64,000 nt of DNA. Origin: an uncultured Latescibacterota bacterium. Its GTDB lineage: Bacteria; Latescibacterota; UBA2968. The translations under genes were made by a program, and so were the position numbers. The stretch is taken from assembly GCA_958295785.1 (NCBI GenBank), contig OY282377.1, positions 4,094,896 to 4,158,895 of the forward strand, in the 5' to 3' direction. Below are positions 8,499 to 52,664 of the stretch, one piece after another. Numbering within the stretch: position 1 is the first letter of the stretch; the number at the start of each line of letters is the position of its first letter. The notes beneath the pieces were generated by a model, which saw nothing but the letters and a program-made list of their open reading frames with translations, ran no database searches and was not told the origin of the DNA.

Positions 8499-11400
8499 TT
8501 ACCCCATTTCACCGCCCGCCAATACCTCTTTCAAAAACCGCCCGGTGTGCGAGGCGGTGACAGCGGCCACATCCTCGGGCGTGCCGCACGCGATCAGGTC
8601 TCCGCCCGCATCTCCGCCTTCAGGCCCCAGGTCGATCACCCAATCCGCGGTCTTGATCACATCCAAATTGTGCTCGACCACGATTGCTGTATTGCCCGCG
8701 TCAACGAGGCGATTGAGCACGTCGAGCAGCTTTTGAATATCGGCAAAATGCAAGCCCGTGGTCGGTTCGTCCAAAATATAAACCGTCTGTCCGGTATTCG
8801 GTCGGGCCAACTCGCGGGCGAGTTTCACGCGCTGCGCCTCGCCGCCCGAAAGCGTGGTCGAAGCCTGCCCCATTTTGATATAGCCCAAGCCCACGTCAAA
8901 AAGCGTTTGCAGCGACCGTGCAATGCCGGGCACGGGCGCGAAATGCCCGAGGGCCTCTGCCACGCGCATCGCCAGCACATCGGCGATAGACGCGCCCTTA
9001 TAGGTCACAGCGAGCACATCGCGGTTGTAGCGTTTGCCACCGCAGCTTTCGCACTGCACCCACACATCGGGCAAGAAGTGCATCTCAATGCAGCGCGCGC
9101 CCAACCCCGCGCACGCATCGCACCGCCCGCGCTTGTGGTTAAAACTAAAATGCCCGGCCAAAAACCCGCGCACTTGGGCATCGGGCAGGCTGGCGTACAA
9201 CTGGCGAATCTTGTCGAACACCTTGACATAAGTCGCCGGGTTGCTGCGCGGCGAATGCCCTATCGGCGTCTGGTCGATGTTGATCACCTTATCCACCAAC
9301 TCCAACCCCATTACATCGTCGTGTTCTCCCCACGCCTGTCGCGCCTTGTTCACGCGGGCCGCGAGCGCGCCGAACAGCACGTCATTGACGAGCGAACTCT
9401 TGCCCGAACCCGACACCCCGGTCACGCACGTCAACGTGCCCAAGGGGAACGACACATCCACATGTTTCAAATTGTTGTGCCGCGCGCCCCGGATGCACAA
9501 CGCGCCATTCCCGGCATCGCGCCGCACGTCGGGCACCGCGATCTGCAACGCGCCCGATAAATAACGCGCTGTCAATGACCCATTGTCGCTGTGCAACGCC
9601 TGTGGATGACCAGCCGCCACAACGCGCCCGCCCTCACCCCCTGCGCCCGGTCCAAAATCCAAAATGTGATCCGCCTCATTCAAGGTCTCGCGGTCGTGTT
9701 CCACAACGAGCAGGGAATTGCCCAAATCGCGCAACCGCGCCAGCGCGCCCAACAACCGCCGGTTGTCGCGCTGGTGCAACCCAATGGTCGGCTCGTCGAG
9801 CACGTAGAGCACGCCGGTCAGCCCAGAGCCGATTTGACTGGCCAGGCGAATGCGCTGCGCCTCGCCCCCTGAAAGCGTGGGCGCGCGCCGCCCCAAATTC
9901 AAATAGCCCAGGCCCACCTCGTGGAGAAAGCGCAACCGACTCTGGATCTCGGTCAACACTTCTCCGGCGGCCGCGCGCGCCTGCCCGGTCAACGCCATCG
10001 CGTCGAACCACGCACGCACTTCGGCTATCGGCATCGCCGCCACCTGCGGCATGGTTTTGCCAAAGAGCCTAACCGCCGCGCTTTCGGGCCTCAGCCGCGA
10101 TCCCTTGCAGGACGGGCACGGCACATCTTGGATAAATTCCCCCATCAGCCGGCGAAAACGCGGCGCCTGGCGCACCAGCGCGTCAATTGTGGGAAACAAC
10201 CCCTTAAACTGGAACGCGATCGGGCCAGGGCCTTTTAACCACTGCTCGCCCAACCCGTATAAAATCGCGTGTTGCCCCGCTTTTGAAATGCGCGCAAAAG
10301 GCGTGAAAAGATCAAAGCCCGCGGCGTTGCCCACCGCAGACAGCATGCGGCCCATGGGCGTGGTCGCCCCCACCTTTCCCCACGCGAGCACCGCGCCCTC
10401 GGCCAAAGACTTGTGAACATCGGGAATCAGCGTGTGGATGCCCATGCCGCGCTGCGTTCCGTGCCCTTCGCACGACAAACACCACCCCTCATAACTGTTG
10501 AATGACAACCGCTGCGGCGTGATCGCCTCGAAACTCCGCCCGCATGACGGGCAAGACAAGTGCTGGCTGAACCGCGTCTCCGCCTCGTCATCGGGCGAGG
10601 CAACGATCAAAACGCCCCCGGAAATCTCCAACGCGCGCGCGGCCGATTCCGCGATGCGCTTGCGATTCTTCTCGTCTGCAATCACGCGATCCACCAAAAT
10701 CTCGACTCGGTGAGACTGCCGGTAATCGATCTCGGGAGGGGCAGCCAAGTTGAAAACTTTGCCATCGAGCCTGCCGCGCAAATACCCATCCCGGCGGAAG
10801 CGGTTGAGCAAGCTGGCGTAATCTTCTCCCTTGCCGAGTTCCACGGGCGCGAGCAGGTACAAGTGCCGCCCCATTTTCAGCACGCGATCTACAATCTCCG
10901 CCACCGCCTGACTGCCCGCCATCGCGTCGCAATCTGGGCAATACACCTCGCCCAACAGCGCGTACAATGCCCGCAGATAATCCTGCACCTCGGTCACAGT
11001 GCCCACGGTCGAGCGCGGGTTTTTGCTCGCGGCCTTTTGTTCAATGGCGATAGCGGGCGACAAGCCCAAAACGCGATCCACCTTGGGCTTGGGCATTTGC
11101 CCCAAAAACTGCCGCGCATAAGCCGACAGGGATTCCACGTATCGCCGTTGCCCCTCGGCGTAAATCGTATCGAGTGCCAGCGATGATTTGCCCGAACCGG
11201 ACACCCCGGAAATCGCGGTCATTTTTTCGCGTGGGATGGACACATCCACACCTTGCAAATTGTTCTCCCGCGCGCCCCAAACGTCAATGGTGCGAACCCG
11301 CCCATGCACACGCGCTTTGCCGGGGGGTTTCGAGACCGCAGGCGTGCGCGCCCATGCGTCGCCGAGGGCGCGCCCAGTGTGGGACTCGGGGGATTCGGTC

Positions 11401-14159
11401 AATTGTTCGGGCGTGCCCACGGCCAGCACTTGCCCGCCTGCCTCGCCGCCTTCAGGCCCCAGGTCGATCACCCAATCCGCGGTTTTGATCACATCCAAAT
11501 TGTGTTCGATAACCACCACCGAATTGCCCATATCCACGAGCCGGTGCAACACGTTCAAAAGATTTTGAATATCGGCAAAATGCAAGCCCGTGGTCGGCTC
11601 GTCCAAAATGTACAGGGTTTTGCCCGTGCTCCTGCGGCACAGTTCCCTCGACAACTTGACCCGTTGGGCCTCGCCGCCGGACAAGGTGGGCGCGGGCTGG
11701 CCCAATTTGACGTAGCCCATCCCCACATCGACCAGGGTTTGGAGCACGCGGTGAATGCCGGGGATCGCGTCGAAAAACGCATGGGCTTCCGCCACTTCCA
11801 TCGCCAGCACATCGGCAATGGACTTGCCCCTGTAAGTCACATCTAGGGTCTCGCGGTTAAAACGCCGCCCCTCGCACACCGGGCACGTCACCCACACATC
11901 GGCCAAAAAATCCATCTCGACCAAATTCGCGCCATTGCCCTTGCACGCTTCGCACCGCCCGCCCTTCACATTAAAACTGAAACGCCCGGGTTTATGGCCT
12001 CGGACCTTGGACTCGGGCAATTCGGCAAACAATTTGCGAATGGGGTCAAAGGCACCCGTATAGGTCGCCGCATTGCTGCGCGGCGTGCGCCCGATGGGCT
12101 GTTGGTCGATCTCGATGACCTTGTCCATCAGGTCGATGCCCTCGATGCAACGGTGCGCGCCAATCTCCATCTCTGCGCGATTCAACGCACACGCCAGGGC
12201 CGGATAGAGAATATCCGCGACCAGCGATGATTTGCCCGACCCCGATACCCCGGTGACACAGGTGAACGCGCCGAGCGGGATTTTTACGTCGATATCTTTG
12301 AGGTTGTTTTGACGCGCGCCCCGAATCCATATCCCGCGATCTGATACCGCCCGCCTTTGCGGGATGTCAATTTTCTTTTTCCCCGAAAGATACGCCCCTG
12401 TCACCGAATGCTTTCGCCGCGCCACCTGTTTCCACGATCCCTCGGCGACCACCTGCCCGCCCGTGTGCCCCGCGCCGGGGCCAAAATCCACCACCCGATC
12501 CGCGCGGCGCATCGCGTCTTCATCGTGTTCAACCACAATCACCGCATTGCCCACATCCCGCAAGCGGCACAGGGCGTCGAGCAGGCGCCGGTTGTCGCGG
12601 TGGTGCAGGCCAATCGACGGTTCGTCCAACACATACGTCACCCCGACCAACCCGGAGCCGATCTGACCGGCCAGGCGAATGCGCTGCGCCTCGCCGCCGG
12701 AAAGCGTGGGCGCCGTGCGATCTAGCGCGAGATAATCCAACCCCACATCCAACAGAAATTGCAACCGCCCGATAATTTCCTTCAAAGCGTCTTCGGCAAT
12801 GCGCGCCTGCACCTCGGTCAATTTGAGCGAGAAAAAAAAAGCGTGCGCGTCTGCGACCGTCATCGCCGCGACATCGGGCAGGGTTTTGCCTTCGATCTCG
12901 ACCGAGAGGGCTTCGGGCTTCAACCGCACGCCGCGGCATTCGGGGCACTCGCCCACGCGCATAAACGGCGCCAGCCGCTTGCGGATCAAGGGACTGCGCC
13001 CCTCGGCAAATTGCCGCTCCATCGGTGGCAAAATGCCTTCGAACCTATCGCGGTGGCGTTTCACACTGCCGTTGCTCCGCCGCCATTCAAACGCCATCTC
13101 GCCTTTGATGCCGTATAACAACGCCCGTTGCCCCTCGGGTGAAATGCGCTTCCACAGCGTTTGCAAAGTCGCGCCATAACGCTTCAACACGCCCGCATAG
13201 AAGTGGTTTTTCCACCGATTTTTGGGGATGCCCAGCGGCGCGATAGCGCCTTTGATCACAGACAACGCGGGATCGGGCACGACCTTTTTGAGATCCATCG
13301 CAACGCGCGTGCCCAAACCGCGACAGCCGGGGCACATGCCCTGTGGACTGTTGAACGAAAACAATTGCGGCACGGGCTCCTGCGCGCTACGCCCGCATTT
13401 GGGACACGAAAAATGCGTGCTAAACAGAATATCATCCCCAGCTTCGAGGCTGACAATGACCGCGCCCTTGCCCATCGCAAGACCGGCATCTACGGCCTCG
13501 CCAACGCGCCCTCTCGCGTCCTCCTTGACGACAATCCGGTCGATCACCACCTCGATATCGTGCCTGATATAGCGTTCCAATTTCGGGGTCTCGGTCAGCA
13601 CCACCACCTGTCCGTCCACGCGCACGCGGATATATCCCTCTTTTTGCAAATTCTCAAACAGATCGCGGTATTCCCCTTTGCGGCCCTGCACCAGCGACGC
13701 CAAGATGTGAATGCGCGCGCCCGCGCCCAATGCCATAATGCGATCCACAATGCCATCGCGCGTTTGCGCCCCTATCGGCGTGTGGTCGTAGATGCAATGC
13801 GGCGTGCCCACCCGCGCAAACAGCACGCGCAAATAGTCGTAGATTTCGGTGATTGTGCCCACCGTTGACCGGGGATTGCGTCCCGCGGTTTTTTGCTCAA
13901 TGGAAATCGTCGGCGACAATCCCGTGATCTGATCGACTTCGGGCTTTTCCATCTGCCCCAAAAATTGCCGCGCATAAGCCGATAGGGACTCGACATACCG
14001 CCGCTGCCCCTCGGCGTAAATCGTATCAAAAGCCATTGAAGACTTGCCCGAACCCGAAACACCCGTAAAACAGATCAACGCATGTCGGGGCAATACCAGA
14101 TCCACATTTTGCAAATTGTGAACCCGCGCGCCCTTCACGACAATATTTTTCGTCTCCAT
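8499..14159 (-). CDS. uvrA: Tandem-duplicated excinuclease subunit UvrA (single-chain double UvrA)
   Basis: 1886 residues, about twice the usual 940. Start at METKNIVVKGARV (ATG 14159); a longer frame only translates an intergenic repeat. Two complete UvrA units follow each other, giving four Walker A motifs (GVSGSGKSS near residues 35, 636, 986 and 1583), four LSGGEAQR signatures and two full sets of CxxC zinc pairs (for example CPKCG...CPGCRG and CPSCG...CLSCEG). UvrA normally dimerises for damage recognition in nucleotide excision repair, so this chain equals a covalent dimer. Similar double UvrAs are known, for example in Chlamydia. The two halves have diverged in sequence, so the duplication is old. 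The cas operon follows directly. Confidence 0.97.
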   Translation of the reverse strand: METKNIVVKGARVHNLQNVDLVLPRHALICFTGVSGSGKSSMAFDTIYAEGQRRYVESLSAYARQFLGQMEKPEVDQITGLSPTISIEQKTAGRNPRSTVGTITEIYDYLRVLFARVGTPHCIYDHTPIGAQTRDGIVDRIMALGAGARIHILASLVQGRKGEYRDLFENLQKEGYIRVRVDGQVVVLTETPKLERYIRHDIEVVIDRIVVKEDARGRVGEAVDAGLAMGKGAVIVSLEAGDDILFSTHFSCPKCGRSAQEPVPQLFSFNSPQGMCPGCRGLGTRVAMDLKKVVPDPALSVIKGAIAPLGIPKNRWKNHFYAGVLKRYGATLQTLWKRISPEGQRALLYGIKGEMAFEWRRSNGSVKRHRDRFEGILPPMERQFAEGRSPLIRKRLAPFMRVGECPECRGVRLKPEALSVEIEGKTLPDVAAMTVADAHAFFFSLKLTEVQARIAEDALKEIIGRLQFLLDVGLDYLALDRTAPTLSGGEAQRIRLAGQIGSGLVGVTYVLDEPSIGLHHRDNRRLLDALCRLRDVGNAVIVVEHDEDAMRRADRVVDFGPGAGHTGGQVVAEGSWKQVARRKHSVTGAYLSGKKKIDIPQRRAVSDRGIWIRGARQNNLKDIDVKIPLGAFTCVTGVSGSGKSSLVADILYPALACALNRAEMEIGAHRCIEGIDLMDKVIEIDQQPIGRTPRSNAATYTGAFDPIRKLFAELPESKVRGHKPGRFSFNVKGGRCEACKGNGANLVEMDFLADVWVTCPVCEGRRFNRETLDVTYRGKSIADVLAMEVAEAHAFFDAIPGIHRVLQTLVDVGMGYVKLGQPAPTLSGGEAQRVKLSRELCRRSTGKTLYILDEPTTGLHFADIQNLLNVLHRLVDMGNSVVVIEHNLDVIKTADWVIDLGPEGGEAGGQVLAVGTPEQLTESPESHTGRALGDAWARTPAVSKPPGKARVHGRVRTIDVWGARENNLQGVDVSIPREKMTAISGVSGSGKSSLALDTIYAEGQRRYVESLSAYARQFLGQMPKPKVDRVLGLSPAIAIEQKAASKNPRSTVGTVTEVQDYLRALYALLGEVYCPDCDAMAGSQAVAEIVDRVLKMGRHLYLLAPVELGKGEDYASLLNRFRRDGYLRGRLDGKVFNLAAPPEIDYRQSHRVEILVDRVIADEKNRKRIAESAARALEISGGVLIVASPDDEAETRFSQHLSCPSCGRSFEAITPQRLSFNSYEGWCLSCEGHGTQRGMGIHTLIPDVHKSLAEGAVLAWGKVGATTPMGRMLSAVGNAAGFDLFTPFARISKAGQHAILYGLGEQWLKGPGPIAFQFKGLFPTIDALVRQAPRFRRLMGEFIQDVPCPSCKGSRLRPESAAVRLFGKTMPQVAAMPIAEVRAWFDAMALTGQARAAAGEVLTEIQSRLRFLHEVGLGYLNLGRRAPTLSGGEAQRIRLASQIGSGLTGVLYVLDEPTIGLHQRDNRRLLGALARLRDLGNSLLVVEHDRETLNEADHILDFGPGAGGEGGRVVAAGHPQALHSDNGSLTARYLSGALQIAVPDVRRDAGNGALCIRGARHNNLKHVDVSFPLGTLTCVTGVSGSGKSSLVNDVLFGALAARVNKARQAWGEHDDVMGLELVDKVINIDQTPIGHSPRSNPATYVKVFDKIRQLYASLPDAQVRGFLAGHFSFNHKRGRCDACAGLGARCIEMHFLPDVWVQCESCGGKRYNRDVLAVTYKGASIADVLAMRVAEALGHFAPVPGIARSLQTLFDVGLGYIKMGQASTTLSGGEAQRVKLARELARPNTGQTVYILDEPTTGLHFADIQKLLDVLNRLVDAGNTAIVVEHNLDVIKTADWVIDLGPEGGDAGGDLIACGTPEDVAAVTASHTGRFLKEVLAGGEMG

Positions 14160-14244
14160 AAAAACCTTTATATTTTGGTAAGGGGTAAGATGCGGATCGC
14201 GGATTGAGCAGATTGCGCGGATGACACGGATGAAAGGCAAAGGC

Positions 14245-14301
14245 AAGATGCGAGGATAGAAACGTAGGGGCGGCGCCCCCGTGCCCGCCCGAAAATGCAA
14301 G
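14245..14301 (+). repeat. Dispersed palindromic repeat, copy A
   Basis: An intergenic copy of a repeat with core GTAGGGGCGGCGCCCCCGTG, preceded by GATGCGAGGATAGAAAC and followed by CCCGCCC. It folds into a GGGCG/CGCCC hairpin. Other copies lie at 26009-26040 (inverted), 28871-28900, 47378-47453 and 61890-61953. It sits in the uvrA upstream region (14160-14350), which otherwise shows no gene. Confidence 0.8.
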
Positions 14302-14350
14302 GTAAGAGGGCGATCCAACCCATCTCCCATCTTTCGCCTTTAACCACACC

Positions 14351-49994: not shown

Positions 49995-50657
49995 ATGAGC
50001 GTCATCAAATTTCAACATGTGCAAGTTGAGCGGCAGGGCCAACCGATATTGATCAATGTGGATTTCGAGATCGATCATGGCGAGTTCGCCTATTTGATCG
50101 GGCAGACCAGCGCGGAAACAAGCGCGGTATTTGGGCTCATTATTTTTCGGGAACTGCCCAGTTCGGGCGTGGTATTTGTCGGGAAATACGATTCGCAGCA
50201 GATTCGCAGGGCGGATGTGCCGAAGGCGCGCCGAGGCGTGGGCGCGGTGTTTCGAGATTTCAACTTGTTGCGCGACCGCACGGTGTATGAAAATGTGGCG
50301 TTCGCGCTCGAAGTGACAGGGGTTGCGCGGCGACGGGTAAAGCGCAAAACACTCGCGGCGTTGTCGGATGTGGATTTGTTGCACAAACGCGATGCGTATC
50401 CAGACGTGTTGTCGGGCCGCGAGCGGCAACGAGTGGCGATAGCGCGCGCCCTGGCGAATGATCCCGCGGTTTTGTTGATCGATGATCCGACCACCAACGC
50501 GGATGCCGAGGCAGCCGATGATCTGATGGCGATTTTTGCGAAAATGCACGCGCGAGGCATGGCCGCGATCATGGCGACCGGCGATGCGGAATTGGTGGCG
50601 CGATATCCGCGGCGAATATTGCGGTTGGTAGATGGGGTCTTATACCAAATTGAATAG
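49995..50657 (+). CDS. ftsE: FtsE-like protein with degraded ATPase motifs
   Basis: 220 residues from the ATG at 49995 (MSVIKFQHVQVERQGQPIL). Overall alignment to FtsE is clear (RDRTVYENVAFALEVTG, LSGRERQRVAIARAL). However, every key ATP site is altered. Walker A, normally GxSGAGKST, reads GQTSAETSAV, so the lysine is gone. The Q-loop is VFRDFNLL, so glutamine is arginine. Walker B is LLIDDP, with aspartate in place of the catalytic glutamate. The H-loop is MATGD, so histidine is glycine. It cannot be a normal ATPase, but may still scaffold FtsX. FtsX follows, separated by a 448-bp insert. The last codons lie within the inverted repeat that bounds that insert. Confidence 0.9.
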   Translation: MSVIKFQHVQVERQGQPILINVDFEIDHGEFAYLIGQTSAETSAVFGLIIFRELPSSGVVFVGKYDSQQIRRADVPKARRGVGAVFRDFNLLRDRTVYENVAFALEVTGVARRRVKRKTLAALSDVDLLHKRDAYPDVLSGRERQRVAIARALANDPAVLLIDDPTTNADAEAADDLMAIFAKMHARGMAAIMATGDAELVARYPRRILRLVDGVLYQIE

Positions 50658-51089
50658 CTGTTGTCCTCATGTGATGCGCTATGTTGCCCGCAAGCGATCC
50701 CCTTGACCTTACGCAATCATTCAGAGAAGCCATGGCAACAAGGCCATCCCAAAAGACCATCAGATAAAACCATCACGCACAGCGCACAAGGCCGTCTCGC
50801 AACCCACAGCGATTATGTAGCCAACTTTGCAGGCCAACGCATGTGGTGTGTGCAACGAAGCGCTTTGCGCTGTGCCAGTCCCTCGGCGCATGAGAGCGGC
50901 ATTTTTTGCCTCCTTTTTTTGCTGTTGAAAAAAAGTAGGTCGCCGCACGCCGTAGGCACAGGCGTAGCCAACGCATCAAAGGCAACCCACATGGAGGCAG
51001 AACCAAACGCTTTACGTAAGTCTTTTCCCCATTCCTCATTCCTCCCTGATGGGAGGCAGGATACGGACAACTTAAAAGCAATTTGGTAT
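50642..51089. mobile_element. 448-bp insert bounded by inverted repeats, between ftsE and ftsX
   Basis: ATACCAAATTG at 50642-50652 and its inverse CAATTTGGTAT at 51079-51089 bound a 448-bp stretch with no credible protein gene. The left repeat also supplies the last five FtsE codons. A block starting ATACCAAAATTGAATTGCTGTTGTCC-like occurs again at 61799-61825 in single form. The layout fits a MITE-like element inserted into the ftsE-ftsX junction. A long frame reaching FtsX across it is an artefact. Confidence 0.55.
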
Positions 51090-51116
51090 TACACATTGAG
51101 CAGGCGGAAACGTGAA

Positions 51117-51962
51117 ATGGATTTTTTACTGGTGTTGCGCGAGACATTGCGGGGCGTTGCGCGCACGGGAATCGCGGGCGTGATTTCTGTGGCGACTATC
51201 GGGGTCTCCCTGCTGGTGTTGGGCTGGTTTGGGCAGGTGATTGTGGGCGCGCACGCGCTGGTTGACCACTTGCGCGAACATGTGGAGATAGATATTTACT
51301 TTGTGGAAGGCGTTTCACAACAGCGCGTGTTTGCGCTGGAGCGCACGTTGAAAGGCATGCCCGAGGTGGCCGAGGTCGCGTATGTGGATCAAGACACAGC
51401 GGCCAAAGAATTTCGCGCCTTATTTGGTCCGAGCATGGTTGACGCGCTCTCGCGCAATCCCTTGCCCGCTTCGCTCAGGGTTCGCATTGCGCCCGGTGCG
51501 GATATGCCGCGCCGAACTCGGGCCGTTGCAATGGCTGTAAGCGGTCACGAAACTGTAGAAGGGGTGAATGTGGGCGATGTGTGGGTGGATGCGTTGGCGC
51601 GATTTGTGCAAGTGATCATCGGGGTTGGGCTCGTGCTGGGCAGTGCGCTGTGTTTGGCGTGTGCGTTTGCAGTGGGCAATACGACCAAGTCGATGGTGCT
51701 CGCGCAGCGCGATGCCATTGAGATTATGCGGTTGGTCGGCGCGACAGAGGCGACTGTGCGGATGCCCTTGTGGATCGGTGGCGCGATCCAAGGTGTTGCC
51801 GGCGGGTTGTTGGCATCTGCGATGTTGTCTTATGTCGCGTCTTGGTGGACGGTTCGCGTGCCGGATTTGGCGGTCCGACCGTCGGTTGAGATGGGATTCG
51901 GGCTGGTGGTGATAGGCGCGGCGCTGGGGGTGATAGGGAGTTGGGGCTCGTTAAAAAAGTAA
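51117..51962 (+). CDS. ftsX: FtsX-like cell-division membrane protein
   Basis: 281 residues from the ATG at 51117, which gives a clean N-terminus (MDFLLVLRETLRGVARTG). Four membrane helices are predicted by eye: about 18-42, 165-190, 210-240 and 258-278. The periplasmic loop between the first two (VEIDIYFVEGVSQQRVFALERTLKGMPEVAEVAYVDQDTAA) is typical of FtsX. FtsX normally couples FtsE ATP hydrolysis to peptidoglycan hydrolase activation. Here the neighbouring FtsE is degraded, so coupling may be altered. It is followed by an EnvC-like coiled coil. Confidence 0.92.
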   Translation: MDFLLVLRETLRGVARTGIAGVISVATIGVSLLVLGWFGQVIVGAHALVDHLREHVEIDIYFVEGVSQQRVFALERTLKGMPEVAEVAYVDQDTAAKEFRALFGPSMVDALSRNPLPASLRVRIAPGADMPRRTRAVAMAVSGHETVEGVNVGDVWVDALARFVQVIIGVGLVLGSALCLACAFAVGNTTKSMVLAQRDAIEIMRLVGATEATVRMPLWIGGAIQGVAGGLLASAMLSYVASWWTVRVPDLAVRPSVEMGFGLVVIGAALGVIGSWGSLKK

Positions 51963-52004: not shown

Positions 52005-52664
52005 GTGCAAAGTGTAGCGCGTACAATATGTGCGATGGCCTTTTTGATCGCGGTATCGGTCAATGCGATGGCGCAGACGACCCCTGAATTGGAAGCGCGA
52101 TTGAAGGCAGAGCGAGCCGCGCTGGACAGTTTGAAAGCGCGCATAGCGGCTGAGGACAGGCATTTGCAACGGGCGCGCCCTGCGTCGGAAGAGGAGATGC
52201 TGGCGCGACTCGAGCGCGATATGACGCAGGTTGAGGAGGCATTGCGCGTGGTGCAGAGCACATCTCGGGAATTGGCGCAGCAGATCGGGATCACGGAACA
52301 ACAACTTCGGCAGGCCCAAGGCCAACTCAAAACGCGCGAGCAGAATATGGCGCGGCGCGTGCGCGAAAGATATAAAATGGAGCATCGGGGAATCCTGGCG
52401 GTGTTGTTTTCAGCGCGGTCATTTGGCAATGCAGCGCAGCGCGTGCGGTATTTGTCTCAACTGGCGGATCGGGATCAGCGAGATTTTCAGGCATTGCAAG
52501 CCGCGCGCAAACGGGTGAGCCTTTTTTACGCCATCCACAGTTCTCAGCAGCGGCGACAGCAAATTTTGATGCAACGCGAACTTGCAAATGAGCAGGGCTT
52601 AAAACGTTGGGCAACCGATAAGTCGCAGATTTTGAAGCAACGCAGAATATCACAAAACAAATGA
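52005..52664 (+). CDS. EnvC-like coiled-coil protein lacking the LytM domain
   Basis: 219 residues from a GTG at 52005; the ATG at 52035 also works. An N-terminal signal peptide (AMAFLIAVSVNAMAQ) is followed by coiled coil from about 25 to 130 (ELEARLKAERAALDSLKARIAAED; LRVVQSTSRELAQQIG), then MARRVRERYKMEHRGILAVLFSARSFGNAAQRVRYLSQLADRDQ, a hallmark of EnvC. EnvC usually ends with a LytM (M23-like) domain that activates amidases; that domain is absent. The context (ftsE, ftsX, envC) supports the identity. Its stop overlaps the next gene by 4 nt. Confidence 0.85.
   Translation: MQSVARTICAMAFLIAVSVNAMAQTTPELEARLKAERAALDSLKARIAAEDRHLQRARPASEEEMLARLERDMTQVEEALRVVQSTSRELAQQIGITEQQLRQAQGQLKTREQNMARRVRERYKMEHRGILAVLFSARSFGNAAQRVRYLSQLADRDQRDFQALQAARKRVSLFYAIHSSQQRRQQILMQRELANEQGLKRWATDKSQILKQRRISQNK

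Follow-up and report, generated by a model that had tools for sequence, protein, structure and literature searches.

Throughout one bacterial genus, the ATP site of the cell division protein FtsE is degenerate, and the genes ftsE, ftsX and envC are held by purifying selection despite this loss. FtsEX is thought to have an ATP-independent role in recruitment as well as an ATP-dependent role in cell wall synthesis and hydrolysis. In E. coli the two roles are difficult to tease apart, since division is blocked in mutants of the ATPase. In the genus addressed here evolution seems to have separated them: the amidase arm, the activator domain and the ATP site are gone on one branch, while the scaffold appears to be still under selection. 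Judging from sequence, we consider it reasonably likely that a catalytically dead FtsEX-EnvC stub was retained as an ATP-independent scaffold of the divisome after loss of the amidase arm. We give about even chances to the wider claim that this would be a natural and genus-wide ATP-independent FtsEX, which lost its motor, activator domain and amidase jointly and is selected purely as a structural link between FtsZ/FtsA and the periplasm. A naturally inactive FtsE was not found reported before in the literature searched, the coverage of which was partial.

All ATP-site motifs are altered in an FtsE ortholog

The window, i.e. the whole stretch of 64,000 nucleotides that was analysed, carries the following ftsE features. 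Motif changes were read by alignment to E. coli FtsE.

49995..50657, + strand: ftsE, 220 aa, all ATP-site motifs altered
50100..50126, + strand: Walker A codons, GQTSAETSA for GxxGxGKST; degenerate in 11/11 genus genomes
50253..50255, + strand: Q-loop Gln codon, now Arg (Q86 to R); Arg also in congeners G008 and G009, Gln in the remaining congeners
50409..50429, + strand: ABC signature, LSGRERQ for LSGGEQQ; second Gly lost in all congeners
50472..50489, + strand: Walker B, LLIDDP, catalytic Glu to Asp (E163 to D, DE to DD); congeners retain Glu
50580..50582, + strand: H-loop His codon, now Gly (H195 to G); in the congeners Arg (4), His (5) or uncovered (1)

The product has an intact frame and both the overall FtsE sequence and the fold of an ABC nucleotide-binding domain (NBD). 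Its best curated family is TIGR02673 (FtsE; E=3e-59), where it scores 200 bits and thus stays under the cut-off of 264.85 bits, a shortfall for which the ATP-site losses plausibly account in part. The solved chains nearest to it in a sequence search of solved structures are all FtsE, and the gene occupies the orthologous position, adjoining an ftsX that encodes the FtsX extracellular domain. The predicted structure is a canonical FtsE NBD fold (pLDDT 91; TM-score of 0.97 to pneumococcal FtsE, 6Z4W), which is weak evidence when taken alone since the underlying alignment combined the window protein with intact FtsEs of other phyla and biases the result.

In Walker A, the E. coli sequence GHSGAGKST is replaced by GQTSAETSA, corresponding to the exchanges K41 to T, G38 to S and G40 to E, and the D-loop NLD reads NAD. 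The set of motifs that makes up a catalytic ABC ATPase (Walker A, Q-loop, signature, Walker B Glu and H-loop His) is thus missing from the window protein. The sequence-only reading had reported replacement of the Walker A Lys, the Q-loop Gln, the Walker B Glu and the H-loop His; these residues are indeed T, R, D and G, respectively, but it had overlooked the P-loop glycines, the signature glycine and the Leu of the D-loop. Among positions conserved in the intact FtsEs of the phylum, 8/17 are changed at the ATP site of the window protein as compared to 3/41 elsewhere (Fisher p=0.0012), and this excess indicates that the pattern is not chance drift. With these replacements, the window FtsE should neither bind nor hydrolyse ATP, the loss of binding being what we infer from the motifs.

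Walker A and signature were lost on the stem of the genus

The protein was compared across 64 species genomes of the phylum including 10 congeners, with a single assembly per species, which for two genus members consists of one contig. Walker A is broken in 10/10 congeners, with the consensus GxTEAEKRA, in which the Lys is kept, the P-loop glycines are lost and Ser is replaced by Arg. The second Gly of the signature is likewise absent in 10/10. The remaining motifs were lost piecemeal across the genus: the Q-loop as listed above, the H-loop His in the window and in G001, G003, G004 and G007 (the G009 protein is cut at residue 172), and the Walker B Glu, within the genus, in the window only. 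All motifs are intact in the aligned FtsEs from sister genera g2-g5 and from further out in the order, class and phylum, the alignment covering all but two distant phylum matches. The Q, DE, H and the P-loop Lys are also kept in all of 80 FtsE-like matches from other phyla, one row of which is misaligned by one residue and a few of which have Ala for the first P-loop Gly. In a tree built from four neighbouring proteins, the window branches off as the sister of the remaining congeners (support 100), and the sister of the genus as a whole is the intact g5 genome (100); therefore the shared losses in Walker A and signature fall on the genus stem.

The sequence-only reading had proposed to look for the same substitutions in relatives, and a broken Walker A and signature are in fact common to all 10 congeners. 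It had also taken intact motifs in close relatives along with pseudogene decay as evidence that would overturn it; the sister genera are intact, but the congeners are broken alike and pseudogene decay was not seen.

It is very improbable that the gene results from errors in sequencing or assembly, or that it was misidentified while a functional second FtsE exists elsewhere. Isolated errors are possible, since the genome contains another ABC gene with a disrupted frame (at L139), and several other ABC ATPases match the FtsE profile as strongly as the window protein does. However, Walker A was lost alike in ten independent congener genomes, which rules out a mutation or artefact confined to the window. 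Each genome moreover has a single FtsX with extracellular domain, and ftsE adjoins it in conserved synteny. The idea that a different ATPase has taken over found no support, as there is one FtsX with extracellular domain and the second-best match to the window FtsE is a MacB-type ATPase. This closest other match, C1:3139333, was considered as a second functional FtsE and rejected, being frameshifted and located beside a MacB-like permease.

EnvC is reduced to a coiled coil and the AmiC-type amidase is absent

Downstream of ftsE, the window carries the following features.

50658..51116, no strand: ftsE-ftsX gap, 459 bp, with an inserted dispersed repeat; a few tens of bp in congeners
51117..51962, + strand: ftsX, 281 aa, with FtsX extracellular domain; omega of 0.39 within the genus
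51699..51746, + strand: cytosolic FtsX segment LAQRDAIEIMRLVGAT, conserved in the alignment; presumed FtsE-contacting coupling helix (role from PMC7468199)
52005..52664, + strand: envC-like gene reduced to the coiled coil, 219 aa, lacking the restraining arm and the LytM domain
52314..52517, + strand: coiled-coil tip of the EnvC-like protein, CC_PcsB match, expected FtsX-binding part (binding sites from PMC7668044)

The repeat in the ftsE-ftsX gap comprises ~350-430 bp, has a copy of 85-88% identity at L242:2437-2807 and looks dispersed and non-coding. A search of the insert for promoters and terminators yielded nothing above chance.

In the window's genome, ftsX with the extracellular domain is present in one copy. 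That ftsX and an envC-like gene lie next to ftsE had been recognized from the sequence alone; overlooked was that the latter lacks its LytM domain. This amidase-activating domain of the FtsEX-EnvC system is lost in 10/10 readable EnvC copies of the genus, i.e. those of the window and nine congeners (the G009 envC runs into a contig edge and is unreadable), whereas the seven family and order relatives having the gene encode proteins of ~380-400 aa with a LytM domain at the end (7/7). The domain scan was run on one truncated and one full-length copy, and a search of solved structures with the stub gave no meaningful match.

Absence of genes was called by profile searches. An AmiC-type amidase (Amidase_3, E<1e-45) is absent from 11/11 genus genomes, as compared to its presence in 8/8 genomes of the same class with intact FtsE and in most other genomes of the phylum. 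The genus genomes have no AmiC/AmiB-type enzyme and keep a single divergent Amidase_3 protein (E~1e-19); in the window's genome this is an amidase with three LysM domains and without the AmiC-type insert. FtsZ and FtsA are present in 22/22 genomes tested; their loss as a cause of FtsE decay was accordingly rejected.

The sequence-only reading had also suggested ATP-independent FtsX signalling. With an amidase as its target this is unlikely, since neither the LytM domain nor the AmiC-type amidase is left; what remains looks more like a scaffold than like a signalling path. We also considered that FtsEX and the EnvC stub were repurposed as a static tether for another periplasmic partner such as the LysM amidase or an M23 peptidase. 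Retention of the FtsX-binding tip of EnvC despite the missing effector domain would agree with such a role, and so would the presence of the LysM amidase and of several M23 proteins. However, relatives that lack FtsEX likewise have a divergent Amidase_3 match with a comparable score, showing that this amidase does not depend on FtsEX, and the locus contains no partner gene, making this explanation quite doubtful.

Purifying selection acts on all three genes

Codon models were fitted to sequences from the genus, so that all branches covered are younger than the loss of Walker A. Omega was 0.32 for FtsE, 0.39 for FtsX and 0.38 for EnvC, and omega=1 was rejected for each of them (2dlnL of 131 for FtsE, p~1e-30; 96 for FtsX; 83 for EnvC). 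The neighbours OTC, DHH, methyltransferase and SurA yielded values of 0.12-0.23 in the genus, and FtsE of intact relatives 0.065 in a set that is deeper and in which synonymous sites are partly saturated. As FtsE exceeds both its neighbours and the intact relatives, constraint on it is relaxed, though not gone. Ten genomes, which lie at a dS of ~0.85 from the window, contained neither a stop codon nor a frameshift, and in a neutral simulation the probability of seeing no stop was 0.0045 on one lineage. Stops, frameshifts and a neutral omega, by which a pseudogene would be recognized, are thus lacking in ftsE. The non-catalytic FtsE proposed by the sequence-only reading gains support from the genus-wide loss of the ATP site together with this selection on the frame.

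Constraint within FtsE has also been redistributed, the pattern of the intact relatives being inverted. Relative to intact relatives, diversity of the genus FtsE is 2.06x at the ATP site, 0.36x in the groove facing FtsX and 0.51x in the rest of the protein, the groove regions facing the FtsX coupling helix being defined from PMC7468199. The likely coupling helix of FtsX and the EnvC tip are conserved.

The main rival, and a serious alternative to a scaffold, is slow decay: ftsE, ftsX and envC would be remnants heading for deletion after loss of the amidase and the LytM domain, with the ATP site having gone first. We regard it as possible, albeit rather unlikely. Omega values of FtsE, FtsX and EnvC above those of the neighbours speak for it, as does the sequence that has been inserted between the first two genes in the window species; the relaxed constraint on FtsE and this split of ftsE and ftsX by a repeat element both count against a scaffold. 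Against slow decay stand the rejection of omega=1 for all three genes and the ten uninterrupted genomes, and undirected decay would not cluster changes at the ATP site while sparing the FtsX groove.

The block was cleanly deleted in related lineages

The pattern of presence and absence was set against a tree of four linked genes. In G015, G016, G019 and G022, which have no AmiC-type amidase, ftsE-ftsX-envC is missing between the methyltransferase and DHH genes in an otherwise identical gene order, and no FtsX_ECD match occurs in the 24 remaining genomes of family f4. These clean losses likewise favor slow decay. As class sisters without the amidase dropped the whole block, the module is dispensable in the class, which counts against a scaffold. 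The genus is the sole group in the set having FtsX without an AmiC-type amidase. The association is imperfect in the outer phylum, where G056 and G057 possess the amidase and have no FtsX match; moreover, the losses in the genus represent one evolutionary event, so that the association must not be read as a tally of independent events. As a separate observation, joint loss of ftsE-ftsX-envC and the AmiC-type amidase seems to have happened repeatedly in the class, namely in G015/G016 (L238, L237), in G019 (L236) and in f4 (L239).

Discussion

We read the remaining genes as a scaffold because the losses on the stem branch came with intact frames, the genes are under purifying selection, the FtsX groove is spared, and FtsZ and FtsA are kept. 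According to this scenario, a true ftsE ortholog would have turned into a pseudo-ATPase on the genus stem as the septal-hydrolysis pathway FtsEX-EnvC-AmiC lost its output, i.e. the LytM domain of EnvC and the AmiC-type amidase. With the amidase arm gone, an ATP-driven switch would no longer be needed and the recruitment scaffold would be kept. FtsE, FtsX and the EnvC coiled coil could then form an ATP-independent membrane scaffold at the FtsZ/FtsA ring, in which FtsE would hold FtsX at the groove for the coupling helix and might also link it to FtsZ, and FtsX would contact FtsA on the inside and the EnvC stub on the outside. Septal wall splitting would probably be carried out by other hydrolases, e.g. 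the LysM amidase. We infer this role from the conserved interfaces and the presence of FtsZ and FtsA.

E. coli FtsEX is brought to the ring by interaction of FtsE with FtsZ, contacts FtsA and recruits EnvC without ATP hydrolysis, while ATP has to be hydrolysed to lift a block on septal wall synthesis and to activate the amidases fully (PMC7343993); EnvC binds FtsX with its tip (PMC7668044). When its ATPase is dead, E. coli FtsEX acts via FtsA to block the synthesis of septal wall (PMC7343993), and the genus would need to have escaped an FtsA-dependent block of the E. coli type. The closest engineered counterparts are ATPase mutants of E. coli FtsE such as D162N (PMC7343993): in both cases FtsEX is present and, for the genus as predicted from sequence, incapable of hydrolysis, and the E. 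coli mutant still binds the ring and EnvC. Mutants of this type block septation (PMC7343993). The case described here, by contrast, arose in nature and holds across the genus; it involves damage to both halves of the composite ATP site, and there is no amidase arm.

With the known FtsEX-EnvC/PcsB/RipC complexes (type VII ABC; 6Z4W, 8HD0, 8W6J, 8JIA), the window system shares the orthologous FtsE sequence and predicted fold, the ftsX and envC-like neighbours and the conserved FtsX groove; it differs by loss of the P-loop, signature, Q-loop, Walker B Glu and H-loop His. Like EnvC (PDB 6TPI, 4BH5), the stub has a coiled coil with an FtsX-binding tip and is encoded after ftsX, but lacking the restraining arm and LytM domain it should not activate amidases. 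The maintained skeleton of the FtsE machinery suggests a job that needs no ATP, and the sister genera with intact systems together with the clean-deletion lineages provide a ready comparative series.

Two side observations deserve mention. The MacB-type ATPase at L139:5189-5876 (G000:C1:3139188-3139875) is split between two frames near Walker A, by a frameshift mutation or an assembly error. Within the window, an ORF of 1943 aa on the - strand (8499-14330) consists of two UvrA copies fused head to tail, as judged from two UvrA-length matches; a model for fused UvrA exists in NCBIfam.
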